64,000 bases of DNA from Pollutimonas subterranea (lineage in GTDB: Bacteria; Pseudomonadota; Gammaproteobacteria; Burkholderiales; Burkholderiaceae_B). The number at the start of each line of letters is the position of its first letter. Within the stretch, counting starts at the first letter, position 1. Where the stretch lies: contig NZ_PDNW01000001.1 in NCBI RefSeq assembly GCF_002849655.1, positions 1 to 64,000 of the forward strand, given 5' to 3'. Below the pieces are notes generated by a model. It worked only from the letters and a program-made list of their open reading frames with translations, had not been told where the DNA came from and ran no database searches. Below are positions 15,980-24,276 of this stretch, piece by piece. Position numbers and translations under genes: made by a program.

Positions 15980-17746
15980 TCAAGTTTTTTGCACCCAGGA
16001 ATCCTTGAGCGTGACGGCGCGATTGATGACGGGTTTTTCTGGCGTGGACTCATGACGGTCTGCCACGAAGTAGCCTAGCCGCTCAAATTGCCAGGTAGCG
16101 CCCGGCGCTGCCTGTGTGCCGGGTTCGAGCCAGCCCTGTACGACCTGGCACGATTCGGGGTTCAAGGCAGCGAGAAAGTCTTTATCGCCCGCATCAGGAT
16201 GCGGATCGCTGAACAGCCGGTCGTACATGCGGATTTCGGCCGCTACTGCATGTGCTGCGCTGACCCAGGTGATATTGCCTTTCACTTTGACGGAGTCGGA
16301 GCCTGGTGTGCCGCTTTTCGTTTCCGGAAGGTATTCGGCCTGGACTTCTATTACGTCTCCGTGTTCATTCTTGACGCAGCCCGTGCATTTGACGATATAG
16401 CCGTACTTCAGGCGTACCGTATTTCCCGGAAATAGCCGGAAATACTTCTTGGGCGGATCTTCCTTGAAGTCATCGCGTTCTATCCATAGTTCGCGCGTGA
16501 AGGGGAATTCGCGGGAACCGGCCGCGGAGTCATGGGGGGTGCGGGGCGCGTGGCACAGCTCGGTCTGGCCTTCCGGGTAATTGGTAATGACCAGCTTGAC
16601 GGGATCGATGACCGCAACCGTGCGCATGGCCTTGGGGTCCAGATCGTCGCGCAAGGCTTGTTCCAGGACGCTATAGTCGATGCGCGAGTCGGCCTTGGAT
16701 ACGCCCAGACGTTCACAAAAAAGACGTATGGATTCAGGCGTGTAGCCGCGTCGACGCAAGCCGGCCAGCGTAGGCATGCGCGGATCGTCCCAGCCGTTCA
16801 CGCGGCCTTCCCGTACCAACTGCAGCAGCTTGCGCTTGCTGGTGACGACATAACTGAGGTTCAGGCGTGCGAACTCGTATTGCCGTGGCAATGGCAGGGA
16901 GAGCTGGCCCAGTTCGGCAAGGTGATTGAGTATCCAGTCGTAAAAAGGTCGCTGGTCTTCGAATTCCAGTGTGCAGACGCTGTGCGTAATGCCTTCCAGC
17001 GCGTCCTCGACGGGATGCGCCCACGCGTACATGGGATATATGCACCACTCGTTGCCGCTGCGGTGATGCGCCGCGTGTCGGATCCGATACATGACCGGGT
17101 CGCGCATATTCATATTGGGCGAGCCCATGTCGATCTTGGCGCGCAGCGCCAGGCTGCCGTCAGGATGCTTGCCCTGGCGCATTTCCTCGAGGAGCGCAAG
17201 CGATTCCTCGGCGGGACGGTTGCGCCATGGCGAGTCTTTGCCTTTCTCGGTAAGCGTTCCGCGCATGGCGCGTATTTGCTCGGCGTTTTGCTCATCGACA
17301 TAGGCGTGTCCGGCTCGCACCAGCTCTTGTGCGAACAGGTACATGTAGCCAAAGTAGTCGCTGGCAAAGTAGCAGTTGGATTCCTCGCCGTACGTCCAGT
17401 CGAAGCCCAGCCACTGCACCATGTCGATAATGGCGTTGACGTATTCTTCTTCTTCTTTTTCGGGGTTCGTGTCGTCGAAGCGCAAATGGCAGGCACCGTG
17501 GTAATCGCGGGCCAGCCCGAAATTCAGGCAAATTGCCTTGGCATGTCCGATATGCAGGTAGCCGTTGGGCTCGGGCGGAAAACGCGTACGGATTTGAGCG
17601 GTGTCGACGCTGCCTTGCTGCTGCACCGACGCTGGCCCGGGCTTGCCTGCCCAGCGCTTGCCGGCATAGCGGCCCTTGGCAAGGTCGTTGTCGATGATGG
17701 TGCGCAGGAAATTCGAGAGGGGAGCAGGGCTCGGTACAGAAGTCAT
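15980..17746 (-). CDS. glnS: glutaminyl-tRNA synthetase
   Basis: 588-residue class I synthetase charging tRNA-Gln in the cytoplasm. The HIGH motif is in PPEPNGYLHIGHAK (near residue 47) and the KMSKS counterpart is VTSKRK (near residue 280). The DDTNPEKEEEEYV and VCTLEFEDQRPFYDW segments are conserved in GlnRS. ATG at 17744-17746 (MTSVPSPAPLSNF) is taken as the start because the preceding 24 in-frame codons read like spacer DNA. It is divergent from the cyd-like operon, with about 110 bp between the start codons. Confidence 0.96.
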   Translation of the reverse strand: MTSVPSPAPLSNFLRTIIDNDLAKGRYAGKRWAGKPGPASVQQQGSVDTAQIRTRFPPEPNGYLHIGHAKAICLNFGLARDYHGACHLRFDDTNPEKEEEEYVNAIIDMVQWLGFDWTYGEESNCYFASDYFGYMYLFAQELVRAGHAYVDEQNAEQIRAMRGTLTEKGKDSPWRNRPAEESLALLEEMRQGKHPDGSLALRAKIDMGSPNMNMRDPVMYRIRHAAHHRSGNEWCIYPMYAWAHPVEDALEGITHSVCTLEFEDQRPFYDWILNHLAELGQLSLPLPRQYEFARLNLSYVVTSKRKLLQLVREGRVNGWDDPRMPTLAGLRRRGYTPESIRLFCERLGVSKADSRIDYSVLEQALRDDLDPKAMRTVAVIDPVKLVITNYPEGQTELCHAPRTPHDSAAGSREFPFTRELWIERDDFKEDPPKKYFRLFPGNTVRLKYGYIVKCTGCVKNEHGDVIEVQAEYLPETKSGTPGSDSVKVKGNITWVSAAHAVAAEIRMYDRLFSDPHPDAGDKDFLAALNPESCQVVQGWLEPGTQAAPGATWQFERLGYFVADRHESTPEKPVINRAVTLKDSWVQKT

Positions 17747-17856
17747 ACGGGATAAGCAGTGAAATGGCGGGCGAAGTAAGCATTTTGCCACGTTCAGGCT
17801 TAATTGCCTGCGCGCCACGGCAGAAATCGCGAACTGGCTCTAAACTAGCGCACATT

Positions 17857-19197
17857 ATGACGTACTCGACCTTGTGGTTATCGCAAATCCAGTTCTTTTC
17901 GAGCCTGGGCTTTATGGTGCTGTTCCTTGTCATAGAACTGGGACTGGCATGGGTGCTGCTGTATTTCAAAATACGCTCGCTCGGGGCCGGCAAATCGCCA
18001 TGGACCGAGGCGTATCGCTTCTGGGTGCGTGTGTTTGCGCTGGCCTTTGTCCTGAGCCTTGCCTCCGGCATGCCGGTACTGATCCAGTTCGGAAGTCTTT
18101 GGCCGACGCTCATGGACAAGATTGGCGACGTGGCTGGCCCGTTGCTAGCCGCCGCTATCCTGTCCACCTTCATTTTCAAATCCTGTTTCCTGGGCGCCAT
18201 GCTTTTCGGACAACGCTACGTTTCCGACAAGGTACATGCCTTGCTGGTATTCATGGTCGCCGTGGGTGTGCTGGTTTCATGCTTCTGGCTATTGGTATTG
18301 TTGTCGTGGATGCATACGCCCTCAGGCGTCAGCTGGACGGAAGGGCAATATCAGGTGGTGGACTGGTGGGCGGTGCTGCTTAATCCCGCCTTGCCCTGGT
18401 ATGCGGCTATTTTCCTTTTTTCCAGCGCACTCACGGTGGGCTTCCTGATGCTGGGCGTAGGTGCCGCACAAGCCCTGCGCCGGCCGGTCAACGAAAGTGA
18501 ACGCCTCGTGTTCAGAACTGCCGCCTCTATCGCCTGTGTTGCGGTAGTGCTTCAAGGACTGGCGGTGGTGGGGGCGGGCCGTATGACCGCGCAATACCAG
18601 CCTGCCAAGGCAGCTGCTGCGGCCGCCTACTGGCGCAGCGGCCCGCAGGCTGATTTGATCTTGTTCGCGATGCCGGACGAGCAGGCGGCGGTCAATCGCA
18701 TGGACTGGACATGGCGCAATGCCGGTAGTCACTGGCTGCAGCGTGATGACAGCGGCAACCTCAGGGGATTGGACCGGTTCGCAGGGATGGCGCCACCGGT
18801 GGGCCTGACCTTCTGGTCGTTCAGGCTGGCATTCCTGATAGGCGTGATCATGGCGCTTGTTGCCTCGATCACCCTGTGGCGCGCGCATCGTGTTCACTAC
18901 GACCCGGGCGCCTTGTCGCGCGGATGGCGGCATGTCCTTGCCGGCATGACATTTTCGGGCTGGATGCTGTTGTTGACCGGTCTTGCCTATTTGCTCTTTG
19001 GCTCTTTCCCCTATGCCGTCACGGGCACCATTACGGTAAGCGAGATCGCGGGAAGTATCCATTTCGACGCATTGCTGGGCGGGTATATTGCCTACCTGGT
19101 GCTTTACGCCGCGCTGCTGGCGGGCTTCTTCCAGCTTCTGCGGCATATTGCGCGATATGGTGTCGTTCCCATCGCCCGGCGCAGGGGGCGCGCATGA
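17857..19197 (+). CDS. CydA-like cytochrome bd subunit I homologue lacking haem ligands
   Basis: 446 residues with about nine membrane segments and a clear CydA backbone: LSQIQF near residue 9, GMPVLIQFGSLW near 71, DVAGPLLA near 91, SWMHTPSG near 150, AVLLNP near 172 and FWSFR near 319. Compared from memory with E. coli CydA, H19 corresponds to M20, E99 to A100, E107 to K108, H186 to I185 and M393 to A325. GRQPW is replaced by GSFPY near 382, and the glutamate before it is missing. The first histidine in the chain is H127. It therefore seems unable to bind the three haems in the usual way. It overlaps the cydB-like gene by four bases. Role unknown. Confidence 0.85.
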   Translation: MTYSTLWLSQIQFFSSLGFMVLFLVIELGLAWVLLYFKIRSLGAGKSPWTEAYRFWVRVFALAFVLSLASGMPVLIQFGSLWPTLMDKIGDVAGPLLAAAILSTFIFKSCFLGAMLFGQRYVSDKVHALLVFMVAVGVLVSCFWLLVLLSWMHTPSGVSWTEGQYQVVDWWAVLLNPALPWYAAIFLFSSALTVGFLMLGVGAAQALRRPVNESERLVFRTAASIACVAVVLQGLAVVGAGRMTAQYQPAKAAAAAAYWRSGPQADLILFAMPDEQAAVNRMDWTWRNAGSHWLQRDDSGNLRGLDRFAGMAPPVGLTFWSFRLAFLIGVIMALVASITLWRAHRVHYDPGALSRGWRHVLAGMTFSGWMLLLTGLAYLLFGSFPYAVTGTITVSEIAGSIHFDALLGGYIAYLVLYAALLAGFFQLLRHIARYGVVPIARRRGRA

Positions 19198-20273
19198 TTG
19201 CTACGCTTGCTACGGCGCTTGGGGTGAACGCCCACGATCCGGCGTTCTGGATGCCACTGGTTTTCATGGCCTTGTTGTTTGCCATTATCGTGGCCGGAAC
19301 GGTACTGGACGGATTCGATATCGGCGTAGGTTGCCTGGCTTTGTTCGCGCCATCCGACTTGCGCCCGCGCATGCTTTCATTGCTCAGTCCCTGGCGCGAC
19401 GCGAATGAATTCTGGCTGTTCCTGGGCATGGGTCTCTTCGTCGCGGCGTTCCCTCACGCCTGGGGAAGCGTCATGGGTGAGCTTTACCTGCCGTTGTGCA
19501 TTCTTGCGCTGGGTGTGCTGTTGCGCTCGGTGGCTTTCGAACTGCGTTTGCGCTCGCCGGTAGAGCTGCAGTCCCGCTGGCTGTTCGGCTTCGCATTGGG
19601 TTCCCTTATCACCGCGCTGGCGCATGGCTTCCTGCTGGCCCAAGTCGTGGTCACGTATCAGGACGACGTCGGCTATCTATGGTTCTCGCTGTTCGTGGGC
19701 TTATCAGCGGTTGCGGCCTATTGCCTGCTGGGCTCGGCCTGGCTGATCATGCGCGTGGGAGGGGAGCTGCGCGCCAGGGCGGTGATGTGGGGGCGGCGCG
19801 CCGTTCGTTGGGCGGCAGCAGGAGCAGTTGGTGTCTCGGTGGTGCTTGCTTTCGGAAATGCCGGCATTTTCCTGAAATGGAGCGACGGCCCGCACTGGTC
19901 CATCGTGGTGGCCATGTGGTTCAGTGTGCTGATCTGTTTTGTCTCCATCGAAATGTGCTTTCAACGGATGATCAACAGCAGTTACCGCACGACAGCCCTG
20001 CCGTTTGTCATGACCCTTATGGTATTCCTCATTACCTTGGGCGGGCTCGGCTACAGCTTTTTTCCTTACCTGGTGCTGGACGATATAACCATCTGGGATG
20101 CCGCGGCATCGGTTGATTCGCTACGGCTGGTTCTCGCCGCCACGGTGGTGGCCTTGCCCGTCGCCCTGATCTTCAATCTGTGGGTCTATTGGCGAATGTT
20201 CGGTTTATCCATAGCGCCCACACCTCCCGAATTCAAGGATCAGCGCGCTGGCGGCGGCAACATCGTTGTGTGA
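19194..20273 (+). CDS. CydB-like cytochrome bd subunit II homologue
   Basis: 359 residues, eight to nine membrane segments. The CydB hallmark VLDGFDIGVG near residue 40, followed by SPWRDANEFWLF near residue 65, LFVAAFPHAW and LLRSVAFELR, is kept. CydB normally binds no catalytic haem but is needed for assembly with CydA. The ATGA overlap with the CydA-like gene shows translational coupling and implies that the two form a complex. Since subunit I lacks the haem ligands, the heterodimer is probably not a conventional quinol oxidase. There is no CydX-sized frame directly downstream; risS ends four bases later on the opposite strand. Confidence 0.88.
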   Translation: MIATLATALGVNAHDPAFWMPLVFMALLFAIIVAGTVLDGFDIGVGCLALFAPSDLRPRMLSLLSPWRDANEFWLFLGMGLFVAAFPHAWGSVMGELYLPLCILALGVLLRSVAFELRLRSPVELQSRWLFGFALGSLITALAHGFLLAQVVVTYQDDVGYLWFSLFVGLSAVAAYCLLGSAWLIMRVGGELRARAVMWGRRAVRWAAAGAVGVSVVLAFGNAGIFLKWSDGPHWSIVVAMWFSVLICFVSIEMCFQRMINSSYRTTALPFVMTLMVFLITLGGLGYSFFPYLVLDDITIWDAAASVDSLRLVLAATVVALPVALIFNLWVYWRMFGLSIAPTPPEFKDQRAGGGNIVV

Positions 20274-20277
20274 TGCC

Positions 20278-21681
20278 TCAGAGCACCTTCAGGCGTGGAA
20301 GAGTGATAGTGACTTGCAGCCCGCCCGAGGGAGCCTGGCCCAGGTCCAGCGTGCCGTGGTGTGCCTTGACGATCGCGTCGGCCAATGCCAACCCCAGTCC
20401 CACCGAACCGGTGAGCGTGCGGGCCTCATCCAGCCGCGAGAACGGGCGTAATGCTTCTTCCCGCCGTTCGGCCGAGATTCCCGGGCCGTGGTCGGAAACG
20501 GTAATGATCGCATCGTCCTTCGTGGCGTCCAGAGCGACTTCCACCGGCGCCTTTCCATGGTTCAGTGCATTGGTGATCAGGTTGTCGAGCAACCGGCCCA
20601 TTGCCAGCCGATCGGCTTCAAGAGTCAACGGCTGCGCGCTGGAGCGGACCAGCGTCACGGGGCTGCCTGTGCTTTCCCATGCCGCAACCTGCTCTTCAAG
20701 CCAGGTGTTCACGTCCAGGGCGGCGAACTGGTAGGAGCCCGGGTCGGAGCCGCGCACGAAGCCGATGAACTGGTTCACCATGCGCTGCATGTCCTGAACG
20801 TCCTTGAGCATGCCCTCTTTGAAGGTGGCGTCCTCCATCATTTCGATGCGTAGCCACATGCGCGACAGCGGTCCTTTCAGGTCGTGGGGCAAGCCGGCGA
20901 GCAACGTTCGCTGTACCGCCGCGGATTGTTCCAGGGTGTCGAGCATGGCATTGAAACGTTCGCCGAGAACCCGTGTCTCGCTGGGCCCGGACGGTGTGAC
21001 GCGCTGGGGCTGGCCGGCGGCAAGTTGATCCGCCGCCTTGGCCAGCCGGGTCAGGGGACGGGTAATGTGCCAGGAAAATGCCGCTGCCAATAGCAGGAAC
21101 ACTCCCATGCCGGTCAGCCATACGGCGATCAACGGCGTTGCCACGGGCGGCGCGATCCGGTCCAGCGGAATGACCATCCATTCCCGGTTGCGCCGGGATT
21201 CGTCCAGGTCCGCATCAGGCAACATCGATATGTACAGGCGCGGCTCTGGTCCGCGCGAAAGCGCGACACGCGTGTCGTCGCTTAGCCGCCTGTTCAGCGC
21301 CTGGACAAATGTGCGCAGGTTGTTCCTGATGTCATTGGGAGGCGGGCGGTGGTCGTGCCGATTCTCCCGCGCGGGGCGCCGTTCTTCGAGGCTGGCGTCC
21401 GAAGGCAGGCTGCGCGACCACAGATGCCATTGGTTTTGCGAGGCAGTACGTACGAAACCCGGCCGCTGCTCTGCAGGAATTTCCGCCAGTGCGGCCCGCA
21501 GGGTGCGTATGGTCGTGGCCGTGAATTCGACGGCAACCTCTTCGGTGAACTGCTTGCGATAGTGGGATACGGTGGCAAAGGTGGCAGCCTGGACCAATAA
21601 TATGGTCCCCAGCGTAAGCAGAACCATGCGCGTGCGCAGCGACCGAGGCAACAATGAACGCAGCGTCATCGTGCGAGTCAC
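20278..21681 (-). CDS. risS: RisS-type sensor histidine kinase
   Basis: 467 residues. A membrane helix near residues 18-38 and another near 190-210 enclose a periplasmic domain of about 150 residues rich in Arg and Asp. Then come HAMP (ITRPLTRLAKAADQL), the H-box LAGLPHDLKGPLSR with the phosphorylated His, the N-box LLDNLITNALNHG and the ATP-lid glycines DHGPGIS and GSVGLGLA. It resembles EnvZ and the Bordetella RisS. It starts at GTG 21681, overlapping the risA stop by four bases (GTGA). The frame is intact, unlike the risS pseudogene reported in B. pertussis. Confidence 0.9.
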   Translation of the reverse strand: MTRTMTLRSLLPRSLRTRMVLLTLGTILLVQAATFATVSHYRKQFTEEVAVEFTATTIRTLRAALAEIPAEQRPGFVRTASQNQWHLWSRSLPSDASLEERRPARENRHDHRPPPNDIRNNLRTFVQALNRRLSDDTRVALSRGPEPRLYISMLPDADLDESRRNREWMVIPLDRIAPPVATPLIAVWLTGMGVFLLLAAAFSWHITRPLTRLAKAADQLAAGQPQRVTPSGPSETRVLGERFNAMLDTLEQSAAVQRTLLAGLPHDLKGPLSRMWLRIEMMEDATFKEGMLKDVQDMQRMVNQFIGFVRGSDPGSYQFAALDVNTWLEEQVAAWESTGSPVTLVRSSAQPLTLEADRLAMGRLLDNLITNALNHGKAPVEVALDATKDDAIITVSDHGPGISAERREEALRPFSRLDEARTLTGSVGLGLALADAIVKAHHGTLDLGQAPSGGLQVTITLPRLKVL

Positions 21682-22379
21682 GGCGAAAACCGGTAGCCGA
21701 CTCCCCAGACGGTCTGTATCCAGCGCGGCTGCTTGGGATCGTCCTCGATGGCGCGACGCAGGCGCAGCACCGCAATGTCGATGGCCCGGTCATTGCGTTC
21801 GCCTTCGTCATCGTCACGTGCCAGGGCCAGCAGGCGATCCCTGGACAAGGGCTTTCCGGGGTTATTGATCAAGGCCTCCAGCAAATTGACTTCACCTCCG
21901 GTCAGCTTGATGATGGCGTCTTCCTTGCTGAGTTGCCGGGTAGAAGGGTCGAAGACGAATGGACCAAACACTACCGGCTTGTCCTTGGTGAGTGCCGATG
22001 CGCCTTTTTTTCGACGTAATACCGCCTCGATGCGCGCCAGGAGTTCGCGCGGGTCAAAAGGCTTGCCCAGGTAATCGTCAGCCCCGGCCTCCAGGCCGAT
22101 GACGCGGTCCACGGTCTCGTCGCGTCCAGTGAGTAAAATAACGGGGATGTCCTCACCCTGCTGCCGCAGGCGGCGGCAGGCTTCCGCCCCATCGCCGTCC
22201 GGCATCATGCGGTCGAGTACGATCAGGTCGGGTGAATACCGTTGAATGCGGGCAGCCAGGTCGCTGGCGTCGGGCGCAAGCAGCGTGTCGTAACTATGAC
22301 GGTTAAGATAGTCGGCAAGCAGTTGGCGCAAGGCGGGATCGTCGTCAACGACCAGTACTTTTACTAGGGGATTTTCCAT
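21678..22379 (-). CDS. risA: RisA/OmpR-type response regulator
   Basis: 233 residues. The receiver domain has the acidic pair in VVDDDPALR, the phosphoacceptor Asp in LIVLDRMMPDGDG (near residue 55), Thr in ILLTGRDE and Lys in YLGKPFDP. The C-terminal winged-helix domain is of the OmpR type (LTGGEVNLLEALINNPGKPL, VLRLRRAIEDDP, TVWGVGYRF). It probably controls outer-membrane or stress genes in response to its partner kinase. The start ATG at 22377-22379 (MENPLVKV) is preferred over the upstream in-frame codon, as the family N-terminus begins just before KVLVVDDD. Confidence 0.93.
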   Translation of the reverse strand: MENPLVKVLVVDDDPALRQLLADYLNRHSYDTLLAPDASDLAARIQRYSPDLIVLDRMMPDGDGAEACRRLRQQGEDIPVILLTGRDETVDRVIGLEAGADDYLGKPFDPRELLARIEAVLRRKKGASALTKDKPVVFGPFVFDPSTRQLSKEDAIIKLTGGEVNLLEALINNPGKPLSRDRLLALARDDDEGERNDRAIDIAVLRLRRAIEDDPKQPRWIQTVWGVGYRFSP

Positions 22380-22485
22380 AGGCCAAAGTGTGCCCCTTGG
22401 CCTGGCGTCTGGCAAGCGCCGGAAATCGACTGAAATAGGTGTCGGCGCCGATGCATGGCTTCATGTTTATTTACACGGGAAACAA

Positions 22486-24276
22486 ATGATAGGGCACCCC
22501 ATACATTCCATGCGCAAGCGCCTCGCCGGCTATTCGTGGCTATCGGATTTGCCCGCTATGTTGTGCTGGGCCGCATTGACCGGGGTCCTGGGTGCATTCA
22601 GCACCATCCTGTTTCACGAGGGCATGCACCTTATACAGAACCTGGTCGCCGGCCGTAGCGGCTCTATTGTGGGCGTCACACAGAGTCTCCCATCGTATGG
22701 GCGCTTGCTGTTTCCTGCCGTCGGCGGGCTGGTGGCAGGTATCTTGTTGTGGCTGGCATCAAAAATGGGCGCCGGAGCGCACTCCGACTATATGGAAGCG
22801 GTGGCCCTCGGAGATGGCCGGTTGTCGATACGGCAAGGCCTGTTGCGCTCGCTTTCATCGTTATTCACGGTGGCGTCGGGCGGCTCCATCGGACGCGAAG
22901 GCGCCATGGTGCATATGGCGGCGCTCGGCGCATCGGCAATAGGCCGGTTCACGTCTTTCGGCACGTCCCGCTTGCGCCTGCTGGTGGCGTGTGGCGCGGC
23001 GGCGGGCGTGGCGTCCGCTTATGGTGCGCCCATCGCAGGCGCATTGTTCGTGGCTGAAATCGTACTGGGCACGATGACCATGCAGAGCTTCGGCCCGCTG
23101 CTTGTGGCGGCGGCCTCCGCGAACGTCGTCATGCGCATGACCGGGCATTATCAAACTACATACGCCATGGCCGATATGCCGGAAGTTCCCGGCATTGAAG
23201 TGCTTCCCTTCGTACTGCTGGGCGGGGTGGCCGGTCTGGCCGCTCCCATGTTCCTGAAGTTCCTGGATGTCGCGCGCAATCGATTCAAAAGTACCGGGCT
23301 GCCGCTGCCCATACGCCTGGCCCTGGGCGGCGCCTTGCTGGGCGCGTTGCTGATGATGCTGCCTGAAGTGGCGGGCAATGGCTACAGCGTGGTGTCTTCC
23401 TTGCTGCACACATCCTGGACCTGGCATGCCGTTGTCCTGATTCTGATTTGCAAGGTGCTGGCCACAGCGCTGACCGTGGGCTCGGGGGCGGTAGGGGGGG
23501 TATTCACGCCCGCTCTTTTTGTGGGCGGGGCCATCGGGACACTGTTCGGGAAGCTAATGGAGCTGGCCTGGCCGGGCATGACGACCGAGATATACATGTA
23601 TACATTGGTTGGCATGGGGAGTTTCCTGGGGGCGGCGACCAGTGCTCCGCTCATGGCTATATTGATGATATTCGAGATGACCCTGAGCTATCAATTGGTC
23701 CTGCCCCTGATGCTCGCCTGCGTGATTGCGTATTTCGTATCGCGTGCAGTGGCCGAGGTCGCCATGTATGATGTAACGGTTGTGCGCGAACGCGATGCTG
23801 TGTTGCGCCAACAACTGCGCAGCACGATGCTCGACGAACTGTTGCGCCCGGCTACGACCGTCGTCGTGACGACGTCGCCGGTCAGCGAGGCGCTGCAGAT
23901 GTTCCTGGACTATCCCGTCAGGTATCTGTATGTGGTCGACGAGGAAAATATTTTCCAGGGCGTCATCGCCCAGCAGGATCTGACCAGCTTATTGCTGGGC
24001 CAAAGCGACATACACGCGAGGCTGGCCGGCGAGGTGTTGCGCCGCGATTTCGTCAAGACGCTGCATCCCGGCATGACACTGGACGAAGCCCAGGATATCT
24101 TCGTGCAGTTCCAGGGCGAGCGCCTGCCCGTGGTCAGCCGCGGCGAGCAACCCACGCTGCTTGGCGTGGTCTACAAGTCATCGGTGCTGGAAAAATATAG
24201 CGCCATCAAGCGATCCTTGGATGCCGGCGGCGAGGCCATGTTGGCGTTTGGACCCATACGCCGCCCACGTAACTGA
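22486..24276 (+). CDS. CLC-family chloride channel/transporter with CBS domains
   Basis: About 596 residues. The CLC core (residues 10-430) shows GGSIGREGAMVH with the gating glutamate, and GAVGGVFTPALFVGGAIG. The C-terminus has two CBS motifs (LRPATTVVVTTSPVSEALQ and FVKTLHPGMTLDEAQ regions) that usually sense nucleotides. In the helix corresponding to the internal proton glutamate of E. coli ClcA, the segment LFVAEIVLG has isoleucine where E203 is expected. This may mean channel-like or uncoupled transport, an inference from one residue. The start at 22486 has GGGA six bases upstream. It is transcribed away from risA. Confidence 0.88.
   Translation: MIGHPIHSMRKRLAGYSWLSDLPAMLCWAALTGVLGAFSTILFHEGMHLIQNLVAGRSGSIVGVTQSLPSYGRLLFPAVGGLVAGILLWLASKMGAGAHSDYMEAVALGDGRLSIRQGLLRSLSSLFTVASGGSIGREGAMVHMAALGASAIGRFTSFGTSRLRLLVACGAAAGVASAYGAPIAGALFVAEIVLGTMTMQSFGPLLVAAASANVVMRMTGHYQTTYAMADMPEVPGIEVLPFVLLGGVAGLAAPMFLKFLDVARNRFKSTGLPLPIRLALGGALLGALLMMLPEVAGNGYSVVSSLLHTSWTWHAVVLILICKVLATALTVGSGAVGGVFTPALFVGGAIGTLFGKLMELAWPGMTTEIYMYTLVGMGSFLGAATSAPLMAILMIFEMTLSYQLVLPLMLACVIAYFVSRAVAEVAMYDVTVVRERDAVLRQQLRSTMLDELLRPATTVVVTTSPVSEALQMFLDYPVRYLYVVDEENIFQGVIAQQDLTSLLLGQSDIHARLAGEVLRRDFVKTLHPGMTLDEAQDIFVQFQGERLPVVSRGEQPTLLGVVYKSSVLEKYSAIKRSLDAGGEAMLAFGPIRRPRN

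Follow-up and report, generated by a model that had tools for sequence, protein, structure and literature searches.

The CydA-CydB gene pair and its surroundings

The window, a 64,000-nucleotide stretch of Pollutimonas subterranea DNA, carries two overlapping genes for homologues of the cytochrome bd subunits CydA and CydB. The locus is composed of the following features:

15980..17743 (start approximate), minus strand: glnS, divergent neighbour, assigned by Pfam
17841..17846, plus strand: -10-like box TAAACT, 10 nt before the cydA start codon
17857..19197, plus strand: CydA-like gene of the haem-less type, ligand sites lost; 446 aa, PF01654 match of 311 bits
19194..20273, plus strand: CydB-like gene, 359 aa, PF02322 match of 187 bits; ATGA overlap with cydA
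20278..21681, minus strand: sensor kinase, tail to tail with cydB (Pfam HAMP and HATPase_c)
21678..22415, minus strand: OmpR-type response regulator (Pfam Response_reg and Trans_reg_C)

By descent, both products belong to the bd superfamily. The Pfam scores are far above the cut-off, with the CydA homologue covering positions 1–417 of 418 in PF01654 and the CydB homologue positions 1–302 of 302 in PF02322, and both proteins gave profile matches to solved bd structures. The pair scored below the curated cut-offs of the NCBIfam bd oxidase equivalogs (NF011677, 86.6 bits against 968; NF011609, 77.4 against 1025; TIGR00203, 77.5 against 117.3). An earlier sequence-only reading of this DNA had described an intact cydA frame coupled to cydB through an ATGA junction, and the open reading frames of 446 and 359 aa bear this out. 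The same junction is found at most homologous loci, and at those examined the CydB match comes after cydA. The nearest named relative is Pollutimonas nitritireducens (91% identity).

In 35 of 40 loci the motif TA[AC]ACT is placed exactly 10 nt 5' of the cydA start codon. Positions -18 to -6 of cydA were also scanned for GGAG, GAGG or AGGA as a Shine-Dalgarno-like core, which none of the 40 loci has. Based on this combination, a conserved leaderless cydA transcript is suggested (window 17841–17859). An FNR/ANR-like box with up to two mismatches was present in 2 of 40 upstream regions, compared with 6% of shuffles, and we claim no oxygen-regulated promoter.

The glnS, kinase and regulator genes of the window all lie on the strand opposite to cydAB. 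The kinase and regulator (20278–22415) correspond to RisK (BP3223) and BP3222 of B. pertussis, and beyond the regulator lies a gene for a CBS-domain ClC chloride channel (22390–24276). At four loci (L050, L058, L071 and L076) the kinase and regulator are absent and the ClC gene directly follows cydAB on its 3' side, on the same strand. We considered the neighbours as a functional link to cydAB and set this aside; glnS, the min genes, the sensor kinase, the regulator and clcB are common by descent.

Ligand sites in the window CydA

Ligand sites were read from alignments with the solved E. coli CydA (6rko) and with the canonical CydA of the same genome. Both alignments are nearly gap-free in the relevant blocks, as the sequence-only reading had maintained, and its E. 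coli numbering is correct against 6rko. The sites concerned, placed by alignment, are:

17914..17916, plus strand: codon of M20, at E. coli H19 (haem d ligand)
18154..18156, plus strand: codon of A100, at E. coli E99
18178..18180, plus strand: codon of K108, at E. coli E107; Glu in 72 of 72 canonical rows
18409..18411, plus strand: codon of I185, at E. coli H186 (haem b558 ligand)
18829..18831, plus strand: codon of A325, at E. coli M393 (haem b558 ligand)
18994..18996, plus strand: codon of L380, at E. coli E445 (haem b595 ligand), preceding GSFPY

Each of the five substitutions proposed earlier (H19 to M20, E99 to A100, E107 to K108, H186 to I185 and M393 to A325) holds in both alignments. 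The glutamate said to be missing before GRQPW is indeed replaced, by L380, and the motif itself reads GSFPY. The window protein thus has none of the axial ligands of the three haems (H19, H186, M393 and E445), and its first histidine is residue 127, also as first read. The quinol site keeps K252 and has alanine in place of E257. E99 and E107 are the proton-path glutamates of bd oxidases, and neither is present. In all three respects the protein departs from a functional bd oxidase. The search for a normal bd oxidase elsewhere in the genome, which the earlier reading had proposed, identified a second CydA/CydB pair of the CIO type (CioAB/CydAB, short Q-loop) with every ligand present.

Ligand loss across the family

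We scanned 268 genomes of the GTDB family of the window, whose named members in this set are Alcaligenaceae, with a profile built from close homologues. A match of at least 483 bits was found in 147 of them; the best canonical CydA read in the family scored 458 bits (L064), and the 147 genomes were taken as haem-less. Ligands were read in 54 distinct haem-less rows from this family, after two fragments (L099 and L100) were excluded and five repeats (L109, L111, L112, L113 and L115) dropped. None of the 54 rows keeps H186, E99, E107 or E257; E107 is replaced by lysine in 53 and by arginine in one. No axial ligand remains in 42 rows, including L078, which has no residue at position 19. The other 12, mostly early-branching, retain one to three (H19 in eight, E445 in six and M393 in four). 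R391 is retained throughout.

Scans of the order (399 genomes) and the phylum (398 genomes), with E up to 1e-110, yielded 55 fetched loci in which ligands were read. The seven that fall inside the family are all haem-less. The 48 outside it carry the complete set of 11 checked residues, so that no haem-less CydA was found among the outside loci read. Chance is excluded by the loss of H186, E99, E107 and E257 in 54 of 54 homologues against a full set in 48 of 48 outside relatives, and on these alignments we regard the ligand loss as confirmed and as extending well beyond the window.

It could be argued that the complex is still a working oxidase, with its haem held by other residues or with a reduced haem set. 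R391 and the rows that keep H19 or E445 would fit this reading, as would the varying placement of haems b595 and d among known bd oxidases (PMC8951039). The early branches with one to three axial ligands may in fact bind haem, and M20 could in principle ligate haem in the members that have it, the residue at this position varying across the clade between M, L, F and V. Against this reading stand the loss of H186 in every row, the complete lack of axial ligands in 42 of 54 and the loss of E257, E99 and E107 as well. Also, a check for substitute ligands, which the sequence-only reading had called for, found no newly conserved His, Met or Cys near the old sites across the 54 rows. Canonical CydA conserves H127 and M115 to the same degree, M133 has only partly replaced leucine, and H430, the one newly conserved histidine, lies near the C-terminus. 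We consider a working oxidase improbable.

Phylogeny, synteny and origin

A quick maximum-likelihood search on 72 rows (L099, L100, L077, L078, L089 and L098 excluded) gave a tree in which a branch of SH-aLRT 100 separates 49 haem-less or partly haem-less rows from 23 canonical ones. H19 is kept in eight rows; seven of them belong to genus g27 and group with L093, from which H19 is gone. The eighth, L056, is an early branch of unsure placement, and the early branch order in this tree is not resolved. On the simplest account, H186, E99, E107 and E257 would have been lost first, along with the change of CydB W57 to arginine, and H19 and E445 would have followed. The locus L088 (G034) has a branch of 1.99 changes per site and keeps only E445 of the axial ligands.

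Of 51 distinct haem-less loci, 50 have glnS within the stretch that was fetched (52 of 53 if L033 and L035, which repeat L039 and L040, are counted), the sole exception being a contig that ends in cydA. None of six tested neighbours was found at 77 canonical loci, most of which had flanks of only ~1.5 kb. The shared glnS neighbourhood and its absence at canonical loci fit one insertion followed by vertical inheritance; as judged from tree and gene order, the haem-less state is clade-wide and vertically inherited. The nearest relatives of the window CydA, at 36–40% identity, are of the CIO kind, and descent from a CIO-type bd oxidase is the best reading of these comparisons.

The neighbourhood also bears on the proposal that the CydAB scaffold is a redox or ligand sensor, possibly quinone-binding, that signals to the adjacent RisK-type kinase. 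The kinase gene lies in the fetched stretch at 35 of the 51 distinct loci, mostly directly tail to tail with cydB, and the B. pertussis kinase BP3223 (RisK) is required for full RisA activity (PMC5020355). However, at 16 of the 51 loci the stretch fetched contains no such kinase, including some loci whose flanks are complete, and the kinase and cydAB are convergent and form no operon. Common descent of the block accounts for the neighbourhood without a functional link, and we regard sensing as unlikely.

Selection and the CydB subunit

Ratios of dN/dS (Nei-Gojobori) were 0.066–0.358 for cydA over eight pairs, seven of them at or below 0.17, and 0.027–0.130 for cydB over seven pairs; several dS values exceed 1, which makes the ratios rough. 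At this resolution, the haem-less pair is seen to be under purifying selection. The earlier description of a maintained complex and not of decay is sustained by these low ratios together with clade-wide loss, a single clade, kept synteny and new fixed residues in both subunits.

In the 12 genomes that encode both kinds of complex, the haem-less CydB is closer to its window counterpart than the haem-less CydA is in all 12, by a mean of +9.4 points (blastp). For the canonical CIO complex of the same genomes, CydB is the closer subunit in six of 12, with a mean of -1.1 points (tblastn). By this measure, CydB is the better conserved subunit of the haem-less complex. Comparison of 41 haem-less with 71 canonical CydB rows (L055 and L037 excluded) identified one site of particular relevance:

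19395..19400, plus strand: codons of CydB R68-D69, at E. coli W57-D58, by alignment

R68 is arginine in 41 of 41 haem-less rows and tryptophan in the 71 canonical rows, and D69 is retained in both sets. Other positions that are fixed or nearly so in haem-less CydB are R120 and R187 (for Lys), W242 (for Pro), F327 (for Tyr), S112 (for Gly) and F73 (for Thr). Along with E107 and E99 of CydA, D58 of CydB is part of the bd oxidase proton path. According to a review, this path follows transmembrane helices 2 and 3 at the CydA/CydB interface, and a conserved CydB aspartate that is essential in E. coli lies on one of its branches (PMC8951039). The fixed charged residues K108 of CydA and R68 of CydB, along with the kept D69, align with this cytoplasmic path. 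From these positions we infer that the path was rebuilt, the K108/R68/D69 group replacing proton uptake by what would be an ion-pair network.

These subunits might also serve another bd oxidase as accessory or assembly factors in mixed complexes, as many of these genomes also encode a CIO or a longer bd-type CydA. Yet haem-less CydA has its own co-evolved CydB, and it is the only PF01654 protein in G001, G010, G175 and G167, four genomes chosen for a single match in the family scan and each 99% complete. Such genomes without any other CydA leave an accessory role very unlikely.

An emptied core and the proposed function

Summed over 425 aligned columns, the residues of haem-less CydA occupy ~790 cubic angstroms less than those of canonical CydA from the same family, and the Kyte-Doolittle sum is 341 for the haem-less and 260 for the canonical protein. 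Both volume and hydrophobicity are consistent between the canonical rows of the family (20) and those from outside it (52). The smaller volume is crude evidence that the haem pockets were not simply filled by larger side chains. Either the helices are repacked or another hydrophobic ligand occupies the former haem pockets, and the emptied, more hydrophobic core is predicted to hold no haem. CydDC as an indicator of haem need was rejected; the TIGR02857 cut-off was reached in only two of 10 genomes (G139 and G007), and CIO-bearing genomes lack CydDC too.

By descent this is a bd-family complex, and by the features that we compared at the level of sequence it is not a bd oxidase. We consider it likely that the pair forms a haem-free, non-respiratory CydA-CydB complex on the bd scaffold, a pseudo-oxidase, which in the window would be unable to oxidise quinol or reduce O2. 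As to its activity, the reduced side-chain volume and more hydrophobic core speak for membrane transport or the binding of a hydrophobic ligand, with CydB and the subunit interface as the active part; we hold this to be a possible role, short of a probable one. Similarly tentative is a composite proposal: that the branch, maintained across much of the bacterial family, is wholly haem-free and is a CydB-centred transporter or hydrophobic-ligand receptor, possibly with input to the RisK-type kinase, and is counted as an oxidase in Bordetella. On that view, the early branches that keep H19 and E445 would record the stepwise dismantling of a respiratory enzyme.

The haem-less pair is alike CIO-type cytochrome bd in fold, length and the overlap of the cydA and cydB genes. 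In contrast to that type, the window pair lacks the haem ligands, E99, E107 and E257, CydB of the clade has arginine for W57, and conservation is higher in CydB than in CydA. Murali and colleagues reportedly described, in 2021, an OR-N family and CydAA', diverged CydA paralogues whose cofactor or donor sites are altered. These are reportedly regarded as oxygen reductases, with a CydA-CydA' pairing proposed. Compared by description only, they resemble haem-less CydA as divergent paralogues with altered sites; unlike in their pairing, the partner of the window CydA is a full PF02322 CydB, and its origin is CIO-like. Our literature search brought up no published CydA that lacks its haem ligands, and an earlier mention, for example by Murali et al, 2021, is possible.

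Haems are the defining feature of bd oxidases. A ligand-less branch kept by selection implies a scaffold with a use beyond respiration, and provides a natural control for the function of the haem sites. The haem-less pair probably has a different membrane job in a family that includes Bordetella.

The Bordetella member, cydAB3

In G139, which we take to be B. pertussis 18323, cydA is intact (446 aa), cydB is interrupted by a break in a run of 11 G (nt 268), and the two genes beside cydB are the kinase and the regulator. A premature stop in cydB3 has been published for strain 18323 (PMC11257404), and BP3223 is RisK and BP3222 OmpR-like (PMC5020355). The stated ends of the published 2373-bp cydAB3 deletion (PMC11257404) fit the haem-less gene geometry to within one base. 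Based on the geometry, the cydB broken at its G run and the kinase and regulator neighbours, cydAB3 (BB4012-4011; BP3225-3224) was taken as the Bordetella member.

On the grounds of sequence similarity, cydAB3 has been published as a high-affinity bd oxidase, and the available parts of these treatments make no mention of missing haem ligands (PMC11257404, PMC13367067). B. bronchiseptica has eight cytochrome oxidase loci (PMC11257404). The terminal oxidase counts of Bordetella and its relatives probably include one non-oxidase, which would alter the reading of published deletion series. In PMC11257404, a B. bronchiseptica strain with cyd3 as sole oxidase could not be made, the delta-cyd3 strain grew like wild type and cyd3 transcripts were low. 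The failure of cyd3 alone agrees with a lost oxidase function without proving it, given these low transcripts and the four other loci that likewise failed as sole oxidase (cco, cio, ctaD2 and cyo2; PMC11257404).

The missing growth phenotype of delta-cyd3 and the loss of the locus in half of B. pertussis strains (PMC11257404) count against a haem-free complex with a function. A decaying oxidase, a pseudogene in progress, would similarly be favoured by the cydB of G139, broken at its G run, and by the finding that 50% of 14 B. pertussis strains have an undamaged locus (PMC11257404). For the clade, however, decay is contradicted by the low dN/dS; frames are open in nearly all loci read, the start region is kept, and the decay observed concerns a single, host-restricted species. 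We therefore regard decay as hardly tenable and retain the maintained, haem-free complex as our reading.

BP3224/BB4011 is listed among genes with homopolymeric tracts, with a C/G tract of 9 and 6 (PMC1891110), and on this basis cydB may be phase-variable in Bordetella. The cydB of L051 (G007) has a run of 6 G where the broken cydB of L055 (G139) has 11.
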